This document shows, piece after piece, positions 13,019 through 19,136 of a stretch of 64,000 nucleotides of DNA. Source of the stretch: Yaniella halotolerans DSM 15476 (GTDB lineage Bacteria > Actinomycetota > Actinomycetes > Actinomycetales > Micrococcaceae); NCBI RefSeq assembly GCF_000420805.1, contig NZ_ATVQ01000001.1:806001-870000 (forward strand). Direction: 5' to 3'. Every line of letters starts with the position of its first letter. Within the stretch, counting starts at the first letter, position 1. Both the position numbers and the translations under genes were made by a program. A model generated the notes under the pieces. The model was not told where the DNA came from. It made no database searches and saw only the letters and a program-made list of their open reading frames with translations.

Positions 13019-14572
13019 ATGTCTGCCCCACCCCATTCATATGACAAGAAGGTTCCGGAATGGGACGACTTGTCTGTCCTCGTTGCCCAAGTCGAAGCCT
13101 TTATCGCCAATGAATCCTTCGACGAGGCAGCTCATCTCCTTGAAGAGAACATAGCCGCTCTATGGTTCGGTCTGCGACCACCCAGAATGGCGAGCGTTCT
13201 CGAAATACTTGTGCGGAGTCTGCCATCTCCGCCGGTACTGCTGCTCGCCGCCAACCGCATCCTAATGTCTTCCGAGACCGAACGAGCGAATGCGCGCGCC
13301 TTCCTGTCAGAAATTGACGGCAACGACCCACAACAGATGTTTATCTTGGCGATGTTTCGGATGCACGATCTTCGCATGCAAGGCCGCGTGGTTGAAGCAT
13401 TAGACCAAGCCGAAGTCATCGAAGAGCTCCTGGGCAAAATGCGGTTCGTATTGGATCCGCACGGCGGCTGGCGTCTCCAGGCTTCATTAGAAATCGGAGT
13501 CTCTGCCATGCTGGCCGGGGATTTTACGAAAGCGCTCACGATTTTCACACAGATACAGCTGCATCCAGCGACACCGAAATACAGTTATCTCACGCGCGCT
13601 GCCCTGGTGAAATCAGCTCTCATTCATGCATGTTTCGGCAATGTCACGAGTGCAAACGCTTTTCTGGAACGGACCAAGCGCATTGCTCGCTCATCGAGTT
13701 GGCTCGAGGACCAGATTGATACGCAGTTGGAGTTTGTCAGCATTCTAACGTCCCCGGAAGATAGCGAAACCGTGCTTGATCGGCTTGAAGCCGTCAGTCT
13801 GCACGATATCGGCGAGATGTGGCCCTTCTATATCGTCGCGATTCACCGGGTTTTCGAAGCTGCCGGTCACTACAGCGAGCTAGAACATCGACTAGAAATA
13901 TTCGATGCTCTCCCTTTTCCACGAGTCGACGGGGACGGGTTCTCCGGCAGCGTCATCCCGCTGAAACGTGCAAAACTCGCGTTGTTGCTGGGTAGAGGAT
14001 CGGAAGCCGTGGAGTTCTTGGGGCGCACCGACCCACAGCTGATGTATACGAAACTGATCCAAGCTGCCGCGCAGCTGTATGCCGGGCGATACGAACAGGC
14101 TCTACAGCAAGCATCGAGTCTGCGGCACCACACACGAGGGTTTCGCCTGGTCGAAATCCGGCGCCTCTCCATTATCGCCACCGCTCAGTATCAAGCAGGC
14201 GAGACGAAAGACAGCCTTGCAACACTCGAGCACGCCTCACGATTACCGCGCGGTCTCTCCCCCACGGAAATCAATCTCTTTAATCCGATGATTCGCGATT
14301 TCGCGGAACAACACGTGAGCACGTGGCCGCCACCTTCAGCAGGGGCATCTACATTCTTGGTGGGACTCCCCGAAGCTGGTCCTACCCTTACCGAGCGTGA
14401 AGTAGAAATTCTCGGCCACTTGGCCCGTGGACATACCCGAGCACGCATCGCCAAGGCGCTTGGGGTCAGCCCCAATACCGTCAAAACACAGCTTCGATCA
14501 ATTTTTCATAAGCTCAAAGTGTCATCGGCCGCCGACGCTGTCCAACAGGGTCAACGACGCGGCATCATTTAA
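13019..14572 (+). CDS. LuxR-type HTH regulator with helical-repeat body, copy 1
   Basis: A 517-residue protein with a C-terminal LuxR helix-turn-helix (about 450-517: LTEREVEILGHLARGHTRARIAKALGVSPNTVKTQLRSI, split by eye). The remaining 440 residues are almost all helical and look like TPR-style repeats. There is no Walker A motif, so it is not a MalT/LAL ATPase, and no receiver or autoinducer domain. It is a clear paralogue of the gene at 16122: shared segments include HDIGEMWPFYIVA, GFSGSVIPLKRA and the terminal RRGII, and both are 517 residues when started at this ATG. An in-frame upstream ATG at 12884 would add 45 residues not present in the paralogue. The function is not known. Its last 51 bases overlap the convergent GDPD gene. 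Confidence 0.85.
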   Translation: MSAPPHSYDKKVPEWDDLSVLVAQVEAFIANESFDEAAHLLEENIAALWFGLRPPRMASVLEILVRSLPSPPVLLLAANRILMSSETERANARAFLSEIDGNDPQQMFILAMFRMHDLRMQGRVVEALDQAEVIEELLGKMRFVLDPHGGWRLQASLEIGVSAMLAGDFTKALTIFTQIQLHPATPKYSYLTRAALVKSALIHACFGNVTSANAFLERTKRIARSSSWLEDQIDTQLEFVSILTSPEDSETVLDRLEAVSLHDIGEMWPFYIVAIHRVFEAAGHYSELEHRLEIFDALPFPRVDGDGFSGSVIPLKRAKLALLLGRGSEAVEFLGRTDPQLMYTKLIQAAAQLYAGRYEQALQQASSLRHHTRGFRLVEIRRLSIIATAQYQAGETKDSLATLEHASRLPRGLSPTEINLFNPMIRDFAEQHVSTWPPPSAGASTFLVGLPEAGPTLTEREVEILGHLARGHTRARIAKALGVSPNTVKTQLRSIFHKLKVSSAADAVQQGQRRGII

Positions 14573-15346
14573 CGCCAGCGCCCATGCGGGATCATTCACG
14601 GTGATTTGCCGGACGCCCATTCGCCTTGCTGCAGTCAACTGCTCGTTCGTTTCGACAGTCCACATGCGAACTACCCGGTCCGTCTGATTCCATGCATCTA
14701 ACGCCCCGTGATCGGTCAGCCAGTCAACCGACGGGCCGATCATCCCCGTGGCGTTGATATCCACATCGTGGGAGTCGATCAGTTGGCACAACCGTGTCGA
14801 GGGCACTGCACGAGCTACTCGTCGCAGTGCTTCGTTGGAAAAACTCATGATGGATACACTGACTTCGGTTGGCCTGCCCTGCGGCATCAACGTGCCAGTC
14901 TCAGCGTTCCATCCCCACCGCTGCAGCCATTCCCAGACAGCCTCTTCAATGACACCCGCTGCACATGCGCCAATTTTCATTTCAAGGGCGAGTTCTACGG
15001 GGTACTGCGCTGCAATCATCATCTGCGTCAACTGGTCTAGTGTGACGAGTTGGCCTTCTGGACTGGTGACGCTTGCTTTCAGCTCATCACGGTTCGAGGA
15101 TTGAGCAGTTTTCCAAGAGGTAACGTCGAGTTGACGGAGATCAGCGAGGCGGTGATCTCGCACCGGGCCGGTGCCGGACGACGTACGGTCCAGCGTGGCA
15201 TCGTGCCAGCAGATGAGGTGTCCGTCTGCTGAGAGTTGGACGTCTGTTTCGATTCCGTCGACGCCGGTTGCCAGCGCGTGGGCAAATGCGGCGCGAGTAT
15301 GTTCAGCATATTGAGCGCTTGCGCCGCGGTGTGCAAAAATTTTCAC
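14522..15346 (-). CDS. Glycerophosphodiester phosphodiesterase family protein
   Basis: A 274-residue TIM-barrel enzyme of the GDPD family, which hydrolyses glycerophosphodiesters to glycerol 3-phosphate and an alcohol. The catalytic set is visible: HRGAS near the N-terminus, GIETDVQLS with the metal-binding glutamate and aspartate, and CWHD with the second histidine. Later landmarks are LALEMKIGA and IMSFSNEALRRV. No signal peptide is present, so it is probably cytoplasmic, as in UgpQ. It begins with GTG, and its 3' end runs 51 bases into the convergent LuxR-type gene. It is the one protein gene found in the first copy of the duplicated block and not in the second. Confidence 0.9.
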   Translation of the reverse strand: MKIFAHRGASAQYAEHTRAAFAHALATGVDGIETDVQLSADGHLICWHDATLDRTSSGTGPVRDHRLADLRQLDVTSWKTAQSSNRDELKASVTSPEGQLVTLDQLTQMMIAAQYPVELALEMKIGACAAGVIEEAVWEWLQRWGWNAETGTLMPQGRPTEVSVSIMSFSNEALRRVARAVPSTRLCQLIDSHDVDINATGMIGPSVDWLTDHGALDAWNQTDRVVRMWTVETNEQLTAARRMGVRQITVNDPAWALALNDAASLTLLDSVGGR

Positions 15347-15417
15347 GAACTCAAGAATAGAGCAAGAACGTGTCCAGGCGGCGACCCCGGGGTAAACGAG
15401 GTGTGGAGAAAAATGAA

Positions 15418-15453
15418 GGAACCCCCGCGATGTAGAAGCTACGCGAGGGTTCC
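15418..15453 (-). terminator. Terminator of tRNA array 1
   Basis: Read on the minus strand, a 12-base stem with one mismatch (GGAACCCTCGCG against CGCGGGGGTTCC) is followed by TTCATTTTTCT. It lies three bases beyond the tRNA-Phe end. Confidence 0.85.
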
Positions 15454-15455
15454 AG

Positions 15456-15528
15456 TGGCTCCGACCGGCATCGATCCGGTGACCTTTCGATTTTCAGTCG
15501 AACGCTCTACCAACTGAGCTACAGAGCC
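15456..15528 (-). tRNA. tRNA-Phe (GAA), copy 1
   Basis: A complete 73-base cloverleaf: a seven-base acceptor stem (GGCTCTG with CGGAGCC), a D-arm, an anticodon arm TTCGA-CTGAAAA-TCGAA with anticodon GAA, and a T-arm ACCGG-ATCGATG-CCGGT. CCA is not encoded. It is last in the array read on the minus strand and identical to copy 2 at 17737. Confidence 0.97.
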
Positions 15529-15583
15529 CGGGGCCACAATCTGACCGCCAGCGTCTTGTGGAACTTGTCCCAAAAGACCGAAG

Positions 15584-15657
15584 CGACCCTGACGGGACTT
15601 GAACCCGCGACCTCCGCCGTGACAGGGCGGCGCGCTAACCAACTGCGCTACAGGGCC
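15584..15657 (-). tRNA. tRNA-Asp (GTC), copy 1
   Basis: A complete 74-base cloverleaf with acceptor GGCCCTG/CAGGGTC (one G-U pair), anticodon arm CCGCC-CTGTCAC-GGCGG (anticodon GTC) and the T-arm GCGGG-TTCAAGT-CCCGT. The discriminator base is G. CCA is not encoded. Middle member of the array; identical to copy 2. Confidence 0.97.
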
Positions 15658-15694
15658 ATTGACGAGCAATTGCTCGTCGGTCATGTAATGACCG

Positions 15695-15767
15695 TACCCC
15701 CAACGGGATTCGAACCCGTGCCGCCGCCGTGAAAGGGCGGTGTCCTAGGCCACTAGACGATGGGGGC
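15695..15767 (-). tRNA. tRNA-Glu (TTC), copy 1
   Basis: A complete 73-base cloverleaf with acceptor GCCCCCA/TGGGGGT, anticodon arm CCGCC-CTTTCAC-GGCGG (anticodon TTC) and T-arm ACGGG-TTCGAAT-CCCGT. First tRNA of the array on the minus strand; identical to copy 2. Confidence 0.97.
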
Positions 15768-16121
15768 CTGCTCTTCCTCGGGCCTTGACGGTCCGAGGCC
15801 AGAACACCTAATCATAGAGGCAAGTGCAGCTGGGCGCAAATTGAGTCAACGACCCCGAATACGCAGCAGCTCAGCAACAACACCCGTCACGGTATGAAAC
15901 GGTCGTGTTCGGCACGTTCATTGCAGTAGTAGCAACCATTGACTCCAATTGCGCCCATCTACCATAACAGAGCACTGCAGGACAATAACAGCAGCGAATT
16001 TGTCATACTTTTCCGTAGACAGATGACTCTGTGTGACGGAGAATGCAATTAGGATGAATTTGAAGTAAATATCGAGTAAGCAAGAACTGAAATGTTCATT
16101 GCAAAAGTGCGTGAGGGACTC
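15768..16121. other. Divergent region between tRNA array 1 and LuxR-type gene 2
   Basis: No gene is seen. On the tRNA side the region holds the array promoter (15811-15840). On the other side it holds the leader of the second LuxR-type gene, whose GAGGGACTC ribosome site directly precedes the ATG at 16122. The stretch from about 15960 to 16090 is noticeably AT-rich compared with its neighbours. Confidence 0.6.
15811..15840 (-). promoter_or_regulatory. Putative promoter of tRNA array 1
   Basis: Read on the minus strand, TTTGCG (15840-15835) and TATGAT (15816-15811) are separated by 18 bases. The -10 element ends 44 bases before the tRNA-Glu 5' end. The second array has the same TATGAT with the same spacer length. 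Confidence 0.55.
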
Positions 16122-17675
16122 ATGACTGACGAATCGTTCCCGGGAAGAATACCCCTCGGTGATTACGATGCGCTGTCGCGTTTCGTGGAGCAAGTTGAGC
16201 ACTGTCTCGAACAAGGCGATCTCCCCGAAGTTGCAAAACTTCTAGAATCCGACATGGCGTCGGCATGGTACGGATTCGAACCGGCAAAAACCGCTGAAAT
16301 GCTCCAACAGATTTCCTCTCAGCTCGACTCATCAAAACCGATCTTGAATGCTGTGATACGACTACTGACCGCTACATCGGCCGGCCAGTTCGATGAGCAA
16401 GAGTATTTGTCAAGCGTAGACTCGGACGACCCCCACGAGATGTTTATGCTGTCGATCTTTCGAATGGCAGACCTACGCCTGCATGGCAGAACAGTTGAGG
16501 CCCTGGAGCAGGCTGACAACCTCGAAGCATACCTGGGGAAAATGCGCCTGCTCCTCGACCCTCAAGACGGCGCCGAGCTCCAGACTGTCATACAAATCGG
16601 TATCTCAGCCATGCTGGCCGGTGACTTCACGGGCGCGCTCACGTCATTCATGCATGGACAAATGCTCTCACTCATCCCCCGGTATGCGTTTTTGACACGT
16701 GACGCCCTGGTCAAGTCAGCTGTCATTCACGCGTGCTTTGGCAATTCAACGACGGCGCGATCGCTCTTACAGCGGGCAGAAAAGATTGCCCGAACTCCGA
16801 GTTGGATCGAAGATCATATCGATGCGCATCGCGATTTCGCGACGATTCTCACCGCAGCAACGACCCACGAAGAAGCACTAGACGAGTTGGAAGCGATCAG
16901 CCTGCACGATATTGGGGAAATGTGGCCCTTCTATATCGTCGCGGTGCACCGCCTATTAGAGGCCTGCGGCCATCATGACGAACTCGATCACAGACTTGAG
17001 ATGTTCGATGCGATGCCCTTCCCCGTCGTGGACCGCGAAGGATTCTCCGGCAGTGTCATTCCACTCAAACGCGCCATGCTTGCCATGAAAACCGGCCGTG
17101 AAGCCGATGCTCAAGTTTTCCTCTGTCGAGCAGACCCGAAGCTGCCCTACACGCGACTGATCGAAACCGCCGGACACATTTATGCGGGGCGAACCCAACA
17201 GGCGTTGAACCAAGCTACCCGCCTTAAGAATGAAACTCGGGGCTTTCGGCTGCTTGAAATTCGTCGCCTCAGCCTTCTGGCGGCCGCCCAGTACCAGTCA
17301 GAAGCAATCGAAGAATGCGTCGAGACGCTATCCATTGCCGCTGGGCTACCTCGTGGCCTCTCCGCGAGAGAGATGGAACTTTTTAGTCCCGAAACCCGTG
17401 AATTAGGTATCGAACGGGTGGCGGCATGGCCTGAAGATACCGGTGGTCCCTCCGCGTTCTTGACTGGTCTGCCTAAACCTGGCCATGCCCTCACGGAGCG
17501 CGAAGTTGAGATTATCGGTCAGCTAGCCCAAGGCTACCGCCGTGCTGACATTGCCAAGAACCTCTACATTTCACTGAACACTCTCAAGACTCAGCTACGG
17601 TCGATCTATCGGAAGCTTGAAGTCTCGACTGCTTCAGACGCTATTGTGGGAGCACAACGTCGCGGGATCATCTGA
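16122..17675 (+). CDS. LuxR-type HTH regulator with helical-repeat body, copy 2
   Basis: A 517-residue paralogue of the gene at 13019. The C-terminal LuxR helix-turn-helix spans about residues 450-517 and ends in RRGII as in copy 1. The central region keeps HDIGEMWPFYIVAVHRL, DELDHRLEMFDAMPFP and GFSGSVIPLKRAM. The body is helical without Walker, receiver or ligand-binding motifs that I recognise. This ATG follows GAGGGACTC and gives exactly the same length as copy 1; the in-frame ATG at 16092 would add ten residues. Many recognition-helix residues differ (YISLNTLKTQ here, GVSPNTVKTQ there), so the two may read different sites or signals. It is followed directly by a second identical tRNA array on the opposite strand. 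Confidence 0.85.
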   Translation: MTDESFPGRIPLGDYDALSRFVEQVEHCLEQGDLPEVAKLLESDMASAWYGFEPAKTAEMLQQISSQLDSSKPILNAVIRLLTATSAGQFDEQEYLSSVDSDDPHEMFMLSIFRMADLRLHGRTVEALEQADNLEAYLGKMRLLLDPQDGAELQTVIQIGISAMLAGDFTGALTSFMHGQMLSLIPRYAFLTRDALVKSAVIHACFGNSTTARSLLQRAEKIARTPSWIEDHIDAHRDFATILTAATTHEEALDELEAISLHDIGEMWPFYIVAVHRLLEACGHHDELDHRLEMFDAMPFPVVDREGFSGSVIPLKRAMLAMKTGREADAQVFLCRADPKLPYTRLIETAGHIYAGRTQQALNQATRLKNETRGFRLLEIRRLSLLAAAQYQSEAIEECVETLSIAAGLPRGLSAREMELFSPETRELGIERVAAWPEDTGGPSAFLTGLPKPGHALTEREVEIIGQLAQGYRRADIAKNLYISLNTLKTQLRSIYRKLEVSTASDAIVGAQRRGII

Positions 17676-17683
17676 AATGCAAA

Positions 17684-17707
17684 TGCCCCGGATGGTTGTC
17701 CGAGGCA
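17684..17707 (-). terminator. Terminator of tRNA array 2
   Basis: On the minus strand, TGCCTCGGA pairs with TCCGGGGCA (one G-U pair) around a six-base loop, followed by TTTGCATTT. It lies 29 bases beyond the tRNA-Phe end and only eight bases past the convergent LuxR-type stop, so it may serve both. Confidence 0.75.
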
Positions 17708-17736
17708 CTTGTTGACAGGTACCTGCCAAATCCGTG

Positions 17737-17809
17737 TGGCTCCGACCGGCATCGATCCGGTGACCTTTCGATTTTCAGTCGAACGCTCTACCAACTGAGC
17801 TACAGAGCC
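17737..17809 (-). tRNA. tRNA-Phe (GAA), copy 2
   Basis: Identical in all 73 bases to the tRNA-Phe at 15456, with anticodon GAA. Last member of the second array on the minus strand. Confidence 0.97.
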
Positions 17810-17864
17810 GAAGCTGTCGCTTCTGGACAAAGAGCCTGTCCAAAAGGACAGGCTCTAAGATCCG

Positions 17865-17938
17865 CGACCCTGACGGGACTTGAACCCGCGACCTCCGCCG
17901 TGACAGGGCGGCGCGCTAACCAACTGCGCTACAGGGCC
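17865..17938 (-). tRNA. tRNA-Asp (GTC), copy 2
   Basis: Identical in all 74 bases to the tRNA-Asp at 15584, with anticodon GTC. The spacer to the tRNA-Phe contains an AGAGCCTGTCC...GGACAGGCTCT inverted repeat (about 17831-17856), which is absent from the first array. Confidence 0.97.
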
Positions 17939-17982
17939 ATAGAGAATCTCTCTACAGTTTCTCATGAGTCATATTCTGACTG

Positions 17983-18055
17983 TACCCCCAACGGGATTCG
18001 AACCCGTGCCGCCGCCGTGAAAGGGCGGTGTCCTAGGCCACTAGACGATGGGGGC
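17983..18055 (-). tRNA. tRNA-Glu (TTC), copy 2
   Basis: Identical in all 73 bases to the tRNA-Glu at 15695, with anticodon TTC. First member of the second array on the minus strand. Confidence 0.97.
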
Positions 18056-18368
18056 AGGACTATCGCTGAGTTTTGAACTCTTTGGCGCGATCGACCTAGA
18101 TCATCATAGACCTAAAGGTTTTCTTAATGCAAATCGAACTACATCAATTGGGTCGACAGCCCCGCCCCTTCCGCAAGGCCCTCTCATCACAGTGAGGGCG
18201 TTAAGCTCAAGGTCACCAGGCATCTTTCTTTGAAAACACTAGTCAGGTTGCAAAAATTAGTGGAAATCTTGTGCAATAACTTGAGTTCCATCAAATGCAG
18301 ACAGAAGCATTTTCCAGTGATATTGTGAGATTCAGCACTGTTAATCCCATGAATCTACGGGAGTTCAG
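18056..18368. other. Divergent region between tRNA array 2 and GntR gene
   Basis: No gene is seen. It carries the promoter of the second tRNA array (18103-18132) and a short GCCCTC/GAGGGC hairpin near 18178-18199. The GntR start at 18369 is preceded by GGGAGTTCAG. Confidence 0.6.
18103..18132 (-). promoter_or_regulatory. Putative promoter of tRNA array 2
   Basis: Read on the minus strand, TTGCAT (18132-18127) and TATGAT (18108-18103) are separated by 18 bases, with the -10 element 48 bases from the tRNA-Glu 5' end. This matches the layout of array 1. Confidence 0.65.
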
Positions 18369-19136
18369 ATGGACAAGCCTGTAATCCCAGAGCTTTTGAA
18401 TGCGATCGAAGACAGCGATGATGAGCAACTGCATGCACATACGCCCACCAGGATCGCAACGGAACTGCGCCGACTCATTTGCCAGGGCAGTTTAGAACCC
18501 GGAGCAAAACTCTCCGAAGAGACCATCGCCGCCGAATTTGAAGTCTCACGAAACACTCTCCGAGAAGCGTTCACCATACTCGTGGGTGAAGACCTCGTAT
18601 TCAAAGTCCCAAATAGGGGCGTATTTGTCATCGACCCAGGAATCCGTGATGTCCAAGAGATTTACCAGGCTCGCAGATTCCTGGAACCGTCTGCGATCCT
18701 CTGGGGCCAACTGACTCCTGAACTCACCGATACGTTGCAGCACGTTGCTGATCAGACCCGCCGCGGCATCGCGCAAGAAAACCTTGAGGCCATTGAGGAA
18801 GCCGACCGAAACTTTCATATAGCCGCCGTCGCCCTAGCAGGATCAACAACCATGTCGCTGGCATTAGAGCGACTACTGACACAACTTGGCTTGGCCTTCC
18901 AGAGCCTCAACATCAGCCCCAGTATCCATGAAGCGTTTGCGCAACAGAACCTGGCAATCATCGCCCGAATACTGGCCGGCGAGCGGATCGACGCATCGCG
19001 AGGCCTCCACCGTTACCTTGGACTCGCTGAAAACATGGTCTTGCAGTACGCACTCCCTGATGGCGAAGTCGTGACCACCAAGCAAATACCCAAACAAGAA
19101 GCCATGACGAACGGGCACGACCTCAGCCCACACTAA
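18369..19136 (+). CDS. GntR-family (FadR subfamily) transcriptional regulator
   Basis: A 255-residue regulator. Residues 25-90 form the GntR winged helix, with ELRRLICQGSLEPGAKLSEETIA, FEVSRNTLREAF and the wing VPNRGVFV. Residues 100-225 are the helical FCD ligand domain, with a metal/effector pocket pattern of D, H and R residues (ARRFLEP, EADRNFHIA and a later histidine). FadR-subfamily proteins usually sense small organic acids. No target operon adjoins it: the tRNA array lies upstream on the other strand and the downstream gene is a cell-wall hydrolase behind a terminator. The target is therefore not known. The C-terminal 20 residues look disordered. Confidence 0.9.
   Translation: MDKPVIPELLNAIEDSDDEQLHAHTPTRIATELRRLICQGSLEPGAKLSEETIAAEFEVSRNTLREAFTILVGEDLVFKVPNRGVFVIDPGIRDVQEIYQARRFLEPSAILWGQLTPELTDTLQHVADQTRRGIAQENLEAIEEADRNFHIAAVALAGSTTMSLALERLLTQLGLAFQSLNISPSIHEAFAQQNLAIIARILAGERIDASRGLHRYLGLAENMVLQYALPDGEVVTTKQIPKQEAMTNGHDLSPH

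Follow-up and report, generated by a model that had tools for sequence, protein, structure and literature searches.

The locus described here occupies positions 13,019 to 18,055 of a 64,000-nucleotide stretch of the Yaniella halotolerans DSM 15476 genome (contig NZ_ATVQ01000001.1; this whole stretch is called the window), and carries two genes for LuxR-type regulators, LuxR1 and LuxR2, each followed on the opposite strand by an array of tRNA-Glu, tRNA-Asp, and tRNA-Phe genes. Our preferred explanation, to which we assign a probability of roughly 0.6, is that this arrangement arose by an old tandem duplication, after which the regulators diverged and the tRNA genes were held identical partly by gene conversion, and that the regulators originated in the control of surface adhesins. 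An earlier sequence-only reading of this DNA had proposed two 517-residue paralogues, each with an opposite-strand tRNA trio, and this layout is confirmed by the open reading frames (ORFs) and tRNA calls. The features of the block are as follows.

13019..14572, plus strand: LuxR1 (copy A), 517 amino acids, with a helical region resembling tetratricopeptide repeats (TPR) and a C-terminal GerE helix-turn-helix (HTH) (ORF, Pfam, tree)
14522..15346, minus strand: glycerophosphodiester phosphodiesterase (GDPD) gene (Pfam PF03009, 3.6e-31)
15418..15453, minus strand: terminator-like hairpin after the array 1 tRNA-Phe (fold -23.3 kcal/mol, z -5.18)
15455..15528, minus strand: tRNA-Phe(GAA), array 1 (tRNA call)
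15583..15657, minus strand: tRNA-Asp(GTC), array 1 (tRNA call)
15694..15767, minus strand: tRNA-Glu(TTC), array 1 (tRNA call)
15811..15816, minus strand: TATGAT, a -10-like element of array 1 (sequence, conservation in relatives)
16122..17675, plus strand: LuxR2 (copy B), paralogue of LuxR1, 517 amino acids (ORF, Pfam, copy-B clade)
17680..17711, no strand assigned: hairpin in the gap where LuxR2 and array 2 converge (minus-strand fold, z -4.01)
17736..17809, minus strand: tRNA-Phe(GAA), array 2, in the ancestral place on the GntR/NlpC/Usp side (tRNA call, synteny)
17864..17938, minus strand: tRNA-Asp(GTC), array 2 (tRNA call)
17982..18055, minus strand: tRNA-Glu(TTC), array 2 (tRNA call)
18103..18108, minus strand: TATGAT, a -10-like element of array 2; TTGCAT (18127-18132) precedes it at an 18-base distance
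18369..19136, plus strand: GntR/FCD regulator, the flanking marker of the array 2 side within the genus (Pfam, synteny)

LuxR1 and LuxR2 are paralogous over their full length (53% identity), and the blocks HDIGEMWPFYIVA and GFSGSVIPLKRA are present in both. Each tRNA gene of array 1 is letter-identical over its full length to its partner in array 2, so the claim that all six genes pair up without a base difference is correct. The description of the locus as a duplicated block therefore stands for the regulators and the arrays, but the two copies are unequal: the GDPD gene, which had been overlooked, lies between LuxR1 and array 1 and shares 51 bases with the LuxR1 3′ end. Among the mapped loci, GDPD occupies this position only in the window genome and in one relative (G002). 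In another relative (G004), a GDPD gene is placed upstream of copy A instead (L048 16598-17383). On its other side, array 2 is followed in the window by the GntR, NlpC, and Usp genes in that order.

Comparisons within the genus, by which we mean Yaniella/Enteractinococcus, drew on the window genome (G000) and eight further genomes (G001 to G008); other genomes and loci likewise carry G- and L-numbers. Protein searches with LuxR1 and LuxR2 return Yaniella, Enteractinococcus helveticum, and a Micrococcaceae metagenome-assembled genome, and the regulator is found in all nine genus genomes, with one to five matching stretches in each. Among the 245 family genomes searched, none of the 236 outside the genus contains a full-length regulator. 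Four of these 236 gave weak matches, either to part of the protein (25-27% identity) or to the HTH alone, in frames of 804-957 amino acids.

By comparison, a search for the tRNA array gave a match in all 80 family genomes covered, four of them from the genus. We fetched 20 array loci from 19 genomes of other genera, and the regulator is absent from all 20. An NlpC-like and/or Usp-like gene lies 5′ of the array at 19 of these loci, L133 being the exception, whereas the 3′ neighbors vary between genera. Outside the genus the array is thus usually a single-copy, ordinary tRNA operon, with exceptions: in G027 it occurs on two contigs, and the L128 array includes an additional Asp gene. The two G027 contigs (L139 and L140) show the array with the same flanking genes, and may be an assembly duplicate. 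The arrays of Yaniella/Enteractinococcus resemble this Micrococcaceae operon in their three genes, gene order, 5′ neighbors, and a similar hairpin, which follows the array at 4 of the 20 loci (L131, L133, L139, and L140, the last two from the single genome G027). They differ in being present in two copies, one of which sits between two regulators. Because the NlpC/Usp side corresponds to the array 2 side, array 1 and the regulators would be the additions.

We therefore favor a series of events in which a regulator gene arrived on the 3′ side of an ordinary, usually single tRNA operon, and in which a unit consisting of a LuxR-type gene, a terminator, and the tRNA-Phe/Asp/Glu array was then tandemly duplicated once, before the sampled species split. 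The 3′ side of the array appears to receive other DNA as well, such as a tyrosine-integrase fragment after the array 2 tRNA-Phe of G003 (Pfam 1.8e-10), which indicates that tRNA-Phe may serve as an integration site. This fragment and the between-genus differences in 3′ genes would also fit a mobile element that used tRNA-Phe as its attachment (att) site and brought in the regulators, leaving the second array as a by-product of integration. However, integration is known to duplicate a short att core and not a three-gene array with its promoter, and no integrase was found among the five window-locus proteins scanned, a scan not aimed specifically at att-like repeats. We consider a mobile-element origin very unlikely. 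In G003 (L089 7748-8993), the integrase fragment directly follows the tRNA-Phe hairpin, and transposase-like ORFs recognized by eye come next.

Support for a single duplication comes from gene order and from phylogeny. The order LuxR-array-LuxR-array-GntR is found on one contig in G000, G001, G002, G005, and G007, and G006 has the same order plus an extra, broken LuxR gene and several kilobases of DNA before array 2. In G003, G004, and G008 the contigs break in this region, so that block order can be assessed in six of the nine genomes. In a tree of the 15 full-length copies, which leaves out an off-site copy of G006 (one located away from the block), the broken G006 copy, and the partial G008 copies, the upstream copies (A) and inner copies (B) form separate clades with support of 99/98.8. 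Group A retains support of 94/98 when the off-site G006 copy is added, and no tree pairs an A copy with the B copy of the same genome. Independent duplications within lineages were rejected by the approximately unbiased (AU) test (p-AU 3e-83 for G000/G002, 0.004 for G001/5/6/7, and 1e-6 for G007), and a late duplication in G004 was rejected weakly (p-AU 0.027). Two results weigh against this history: the far outgroups G508 and G909 lower support for the deep forks and the A-B split, and G003, in which only one regulator was found, is placed differently in the copy-A tree and in the tree of flanking genes. On these sequence comparisons, a single old duplication before the sampled Yaniella/Enteractinococcus species split is supported, not proven.

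The distribution of hairpins is compatible with the same history. A motif scan places the hairpin after array 1 in G000 and G002, after array 2 in G001, G003, G005, G006, and G007, and after both tRNA-Phe genes in G004. Such scatter is expected if a LuxR-hairpin-array unit doubled and different lineages then lost one hairpin.

After the duplication, the two regulators would have diverged to about 50% identity, with both remaining under purifying selection. Between G000 and G002, the ratio of nonsynonymous to synonymous substitution rates (dN/dS) comes to 0.081 in copy A and 0.060 in copy B. Because these values are low, we agree with the previous suggestion that both regulators have been kept for function. 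The arrays have had different fates. All three tRNA genes of array 2 are present in the six genomes where the block is contiguous. Array 1 lacks tRNA-Phe in G001 and G005, with the gene retained in their sisters G006 and G007, and the Glu and Asp genes of array 1 look degraded in G004. Given these losses and degradation in three genomes, the extra array is evidently dispensable, and it has lost tRNA genes in some lineages. The G004 remnant (L047 10595-10780) comprises a degraded-looking tRNA-Glu, which ARAGORN calls as tRNA-Arg(TCT), and a degraded-looking tRNA-Asp recognized by eye.

This decay bears on the possibility that the second array was retained for tRNA dosage, for example to translate salt-adapted, acidic proteins with a high Asp and Glu content, with the regulator hitch-hiking. 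The locus provides three anticodons that are present twice among the 47 tRNA genes found and typed in the window genome: Glu-UUC, Asp-GUC, and Phe-GAA are repeated there, all at this block, and the only other repeats are Gly-GCC (twice) and Met-CAU (three times). Also, in a first rough sample of ORFs, Asp plus Glu amounted to 13.4% in the genus versus 10.4% in other genera (p 0.002). However, the difference shrinks to 12.3 versus 11.2% (p 0.26) when ORFs are filtered for homologues, Phe shows no difference in either sample, and the decay of array 1 in three genomes is not what a need for dosage would predict. We judge this explanation improbable. A published study of Pseudomonas fluorescens SBW25 describes tRNA copy number being raised by tandem duplication of a segment with other genes (PMC7661048). 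The likeness to our locus is that tRNA copies were gained by duplicating a segment that carries other genes; the duplications in that study, however, are of 45-290 kb, recent, and experimental, whereas the Yaniella block is small, old, and stable.

If the duplication is old, then the perfect match between the arrays needs an explanation. One candidate is conservation of the tRNAs alone, with no need for conversion. The window tRNA-Asp is letter-identical in 13 of 19 other-genus arrays, and tRNA-Glu is one base off most of them. Moreover, the spacers between the tRNA genes of G000 have diverged between its two arrays (38-52%), even as the orthologous G002 spacers remain similar (72-98%). Conservation by itself, however, does not readily account for lineage-specific tRNA changes that recur in both arrays of one genome. 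A D-loop change in tRNA-Asp found only in G007 is present in both G007 arrays. G000 and G002 each carry a T-arm change of tRNA-Phe in their two arrays, and the one array of G003 has it as well. Four acceptor-stem changes mark the tRNA-Phe of each array in G006 and in G007, and the two Phe copies of G004 also show them. Because the duplication predates the lineage splits, these changes are most simply read as conversion between arrays. The Glu-Asp spacers of G001 and G007 are likewise closer within than between genomes: the two G001 spacers are 92% identical, versus 83% (array 2) and 71% (array 1) to the sister G006, and the two G007 spacers are 74% identical.

Several observations count against conversion. 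The Glu-Asp spacers of G000 are only 52% identical between arrays, with orthologous G002 spacers at 98% and 72%; all of these spacer identities come from short, crude pairwise alignments. In G006, the array 1 tRNA-Phe carries a change that the other array lacks, and G004 gives weak evidence because its assembly is fragmented and its contigs end inside the arrays. Overall, the conversion signal rests on few sites. We regard conservation alone as unlikely, and the view that tRNA identity is partly conservation and partly gene conversion, with strong conservation and exchange between arrays acting together, is supported, not proven, by the sequence comparisons. The gene conversion proposed from the window alone thus finds signs in relatives, in the few changes common to both arrays. 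As described in a published account, rRNA operons and duplicated tuf genes within one genome are homogenized by non-reciprocal recombination (PMC6002687). The arrays would resemble those systems in that copies within a genome are homogenized. In contrast, here the tRNA arrays lie about 2.3 kb apart and the intervening genes are not homogenized. The locus offers a natural case of tRNA genes that remain identical, probably through gene conversion, even as the intervening protein genes are free to diverge.

The array promoters show a different pattern. The sequence-only reading had assigned both arrays the same TATGAT element and 18-base spacer. TATGAT is indeed found at both, but in array 1 an 18-base spacer leads only to TTTGCG (TTGCGC lies at 17), as opposed to TTGCAT in array 2. 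The promoters otherwise differ, forming two types that are each kept at their own array in relatives, and the region around the array 2 TATGAT is strongly conserved within the genus.

It had also been suggested that the regulators may be linked to tRNA supply or growth state. In the strongest form of this idea, they would monitor growth state or the charging of tRNAs and regulate the arrays next to them, and the pair was duplicated and kept as a module. The gene order kept in all six contiguously assembled genus genomes is as this idea predicts, and array 1 and LuxR2 are divergent and share a 354-base intergenic region. However, across species it is mainly two core promoters that align within this region, the array 2 promoter faces GntR and no LuxR gene, and array 1 decays where the LuxR genes stay. 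Furthermore, elsewhere in the family the array is present and the regulator is not, and regulator-family members without an array in the fetched DNA include the G006 off-site copy and relatives in G508, G909, and G1224 (the last judged from open frames only). Relatives in which the regulator is free of tRNA arrays, the finding by which the sequence-only reading would have called the pairing accidental, are thus found outside the genus and at off-site positions, but not at the main locus of the genus. No shared operator was seen in the upstream alignments, which covered copy B, where mainly core promoters are conserved across species, and a portion of copy A. A link to tRNA supply is not supported by these findings and functional coupling is highly improbable; the pairing of regulator and array is best read as shared history.

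What the regulators do instead may be approached through their domains. GerE (PF00196) scores above the Pfam cut-off in both LuxR1 and LuxR2 (1.2e-13 and 5.8e-11), and HTH_23 is also above its cut-off in LuxR1, covering the GerE residues. No ATPase domain was matched in either protein in Pfam or NCBIfam, and the Walker A motif is absent from the 19 genus regulator sequences scanned, three of which are partial. Pfam revealed no receiver domain, and the sub-threshold matches to NCBIfam response-regulator models are confined to residues 452-517. Similarly, no autoinducer-binding domain was found in Pfam, and NCBIfam autoinducer-regulator models match the HTH region far below cut-off. These scans bear out the claim that the regulators have neither an ATPase nor a receiver domain. 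They also set the proteins apart from quorum-sensing LuxR proteins, which carry an N-terminal autoinducer-binding domain, and from NarL-type response regulators, which carry a receiver domain.

For the region upstream of the HTH, a sequence search against solved structures gave matches only around the HTH (residues 420-517), and Pfam TPR_MalT reaches 16.9 bits in LuxR1 against a cut-off of 45, with no match in LuxR2. An AlphaFold model of the regulator, built with seven sequences, is all-helical with a predicted local distance difference test (pLDDT) score of 78.9. A Foldseek search with this model returned many TPR-type proteins. The one match with E < 0.001 is not MalT; MalT domain III (1hz4) ranks 25th behind other TPR-type proteins (TMt 0.52, E 6.3e-3). 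The fold evidence hence points to TPR and not to MalT specifically, which tempers any comparison with that protein. Even so, judging from the model, the family looks like a MalT/LAL regulator minus its ATPase half: the likeness would lie in a helical, TPR-like region placed ahead of a GerE HTH at the C-terminus, and the difference lies in the N-terminal ATPase with Walker A of MalT/LAL proteins, neither of which is present in LuxR1 or LuxR2. By their sequences, the regulators are not LAL members on the defining feature of that group, a Walker A nucleotide-binding domain. Longer Micrococcaceae relatives, of 804-944 amino acids, align with the regulator in their C-terminal parts at 24-28% identity, one by the HTH alone; a 944-amino acid relative has an AAA domain, and one of 804 amino acids is without a Pfam-recognized ATPase. 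By analogy with the C-terminal half of LAL proteins, a TPR-like superhelix may bind a ligand or protein partner, with the GerE HTH presumably binding DNA. No description of this regulator family was found in a literature search of open-licence papers.

Clues to a possible target come from gene neighborhoods. Searches of 345 class genomes and 396 order genomes (overlapping sets) with the regulator revealed two relatives from beyond the genus that match it in length, in G508 and G909, and ARAGORN found no tRNA genes in the regions fetched around them. The G508 regulator adjoins a giant protein of 1487 amino acids with SdrD_B and SpaA domains, and the G909 regulator adjoins a giant of at least 1348 amino acids, which runs off the contig and has DUF7507/DUF11-type domains. 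Within the genus, an SdrD_B/SpaA giant is found in three of nine genomes (G004, G006, and G008), in each case with a regulator-family neighbor. In G004 this neighbor is copy B, in G006 it is the third, broken copy, and in G008 it is an off-site copy cut by a contig end. The genus giants, each of approximately 2000-2150 amino acids with SdrD_B/SpaA domains, are encoded at the following places.

L047 2300-8641: SdrD_B/SpaA giant
L055 985-7350: SdrD_B/SpaA giant
L088 982-7029: SdrD_B/SpaA giant

The G508 giant is homologous to these proteins (about 33% identity over 1000 amino acids). In addition, the off-site LuxR gene of G006 is convergent with a Tad/Flp pilus cluster (L051 9026-17530) containing T2SSE, T2SSF, RcpC, and A24 peptidase genes. 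By rough judgment, surface genes are unlikely to be met as neighbors by chance among thousands of genes.

A number of findings weigh against a surface role. A search for homologues of the G508 giant across 398 genomes of the family to which G508 belongs identified 13 further places in 12 further genomes, and only one of the 13 has a regulator beside the giant (G1224, with the regulator in two frames); two of the 13 (L276 and L283) lose one side at a contig end. The giant as a fixed partner of the regulator is rejected on this count. The giant of G909 lacks an SdrD_B match and resembles the others just in part, by repeat-type similarity (27-35%), a smaller SdrD_B protein of G004 (C55) has no regulator-family member on its contig, and the orientation of regulator and giant genes varies. 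Eight nine-base words are common to the three giant upstream regions, but among 18 LuxR genes none of these words precedes more than two. Finally, the giant was not found in G000, G001, G002, G003, G005, or G007 (G002 is 88% complete and G007 71%), so the regulators of these six genomes must act elsewhere. The giant surface proteins do without the regulator, yet the regulator recurs at surface genes. Our best guess from these neighborhoods is that the original role of the regulator, and likely its first job, was the control of cell-surface adhesins or pili. This provides a testable lead for an unstudied regulator family, with adhesins or pili rather than tRNA supply as candidate targets.

The position of the giant gene suggests a further connection to the block. 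In G006 it has the inner LuxR copies on one side and array 2 on the other. In G004 it is flanked by copy B and by a tRNA-Phe gene at the contig end that presumably belongs to array 2. We infer from these positions that the giant may be an ancestral member of the block that was lost in the window lineage. A bolder and tentative extension, which we hold possible though rather unlikely, is that the regulators represent an undescribed ATPase-less TPR-GerE family for giant cell-wall proteins or pili, and that recombination between tRNA arrays gains and loses regulator copies and the linked surface gene, forming a tRNA-flanked surface switch of which the two regulators in the window would be re-purposed remnants.

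Two minor features of the giants were observed. Those of G004 and G008 carry an LPXTG motif, and the genus giant genes are preceded by about 150 bases of strongly conserved DNA that could be a regulated leader.

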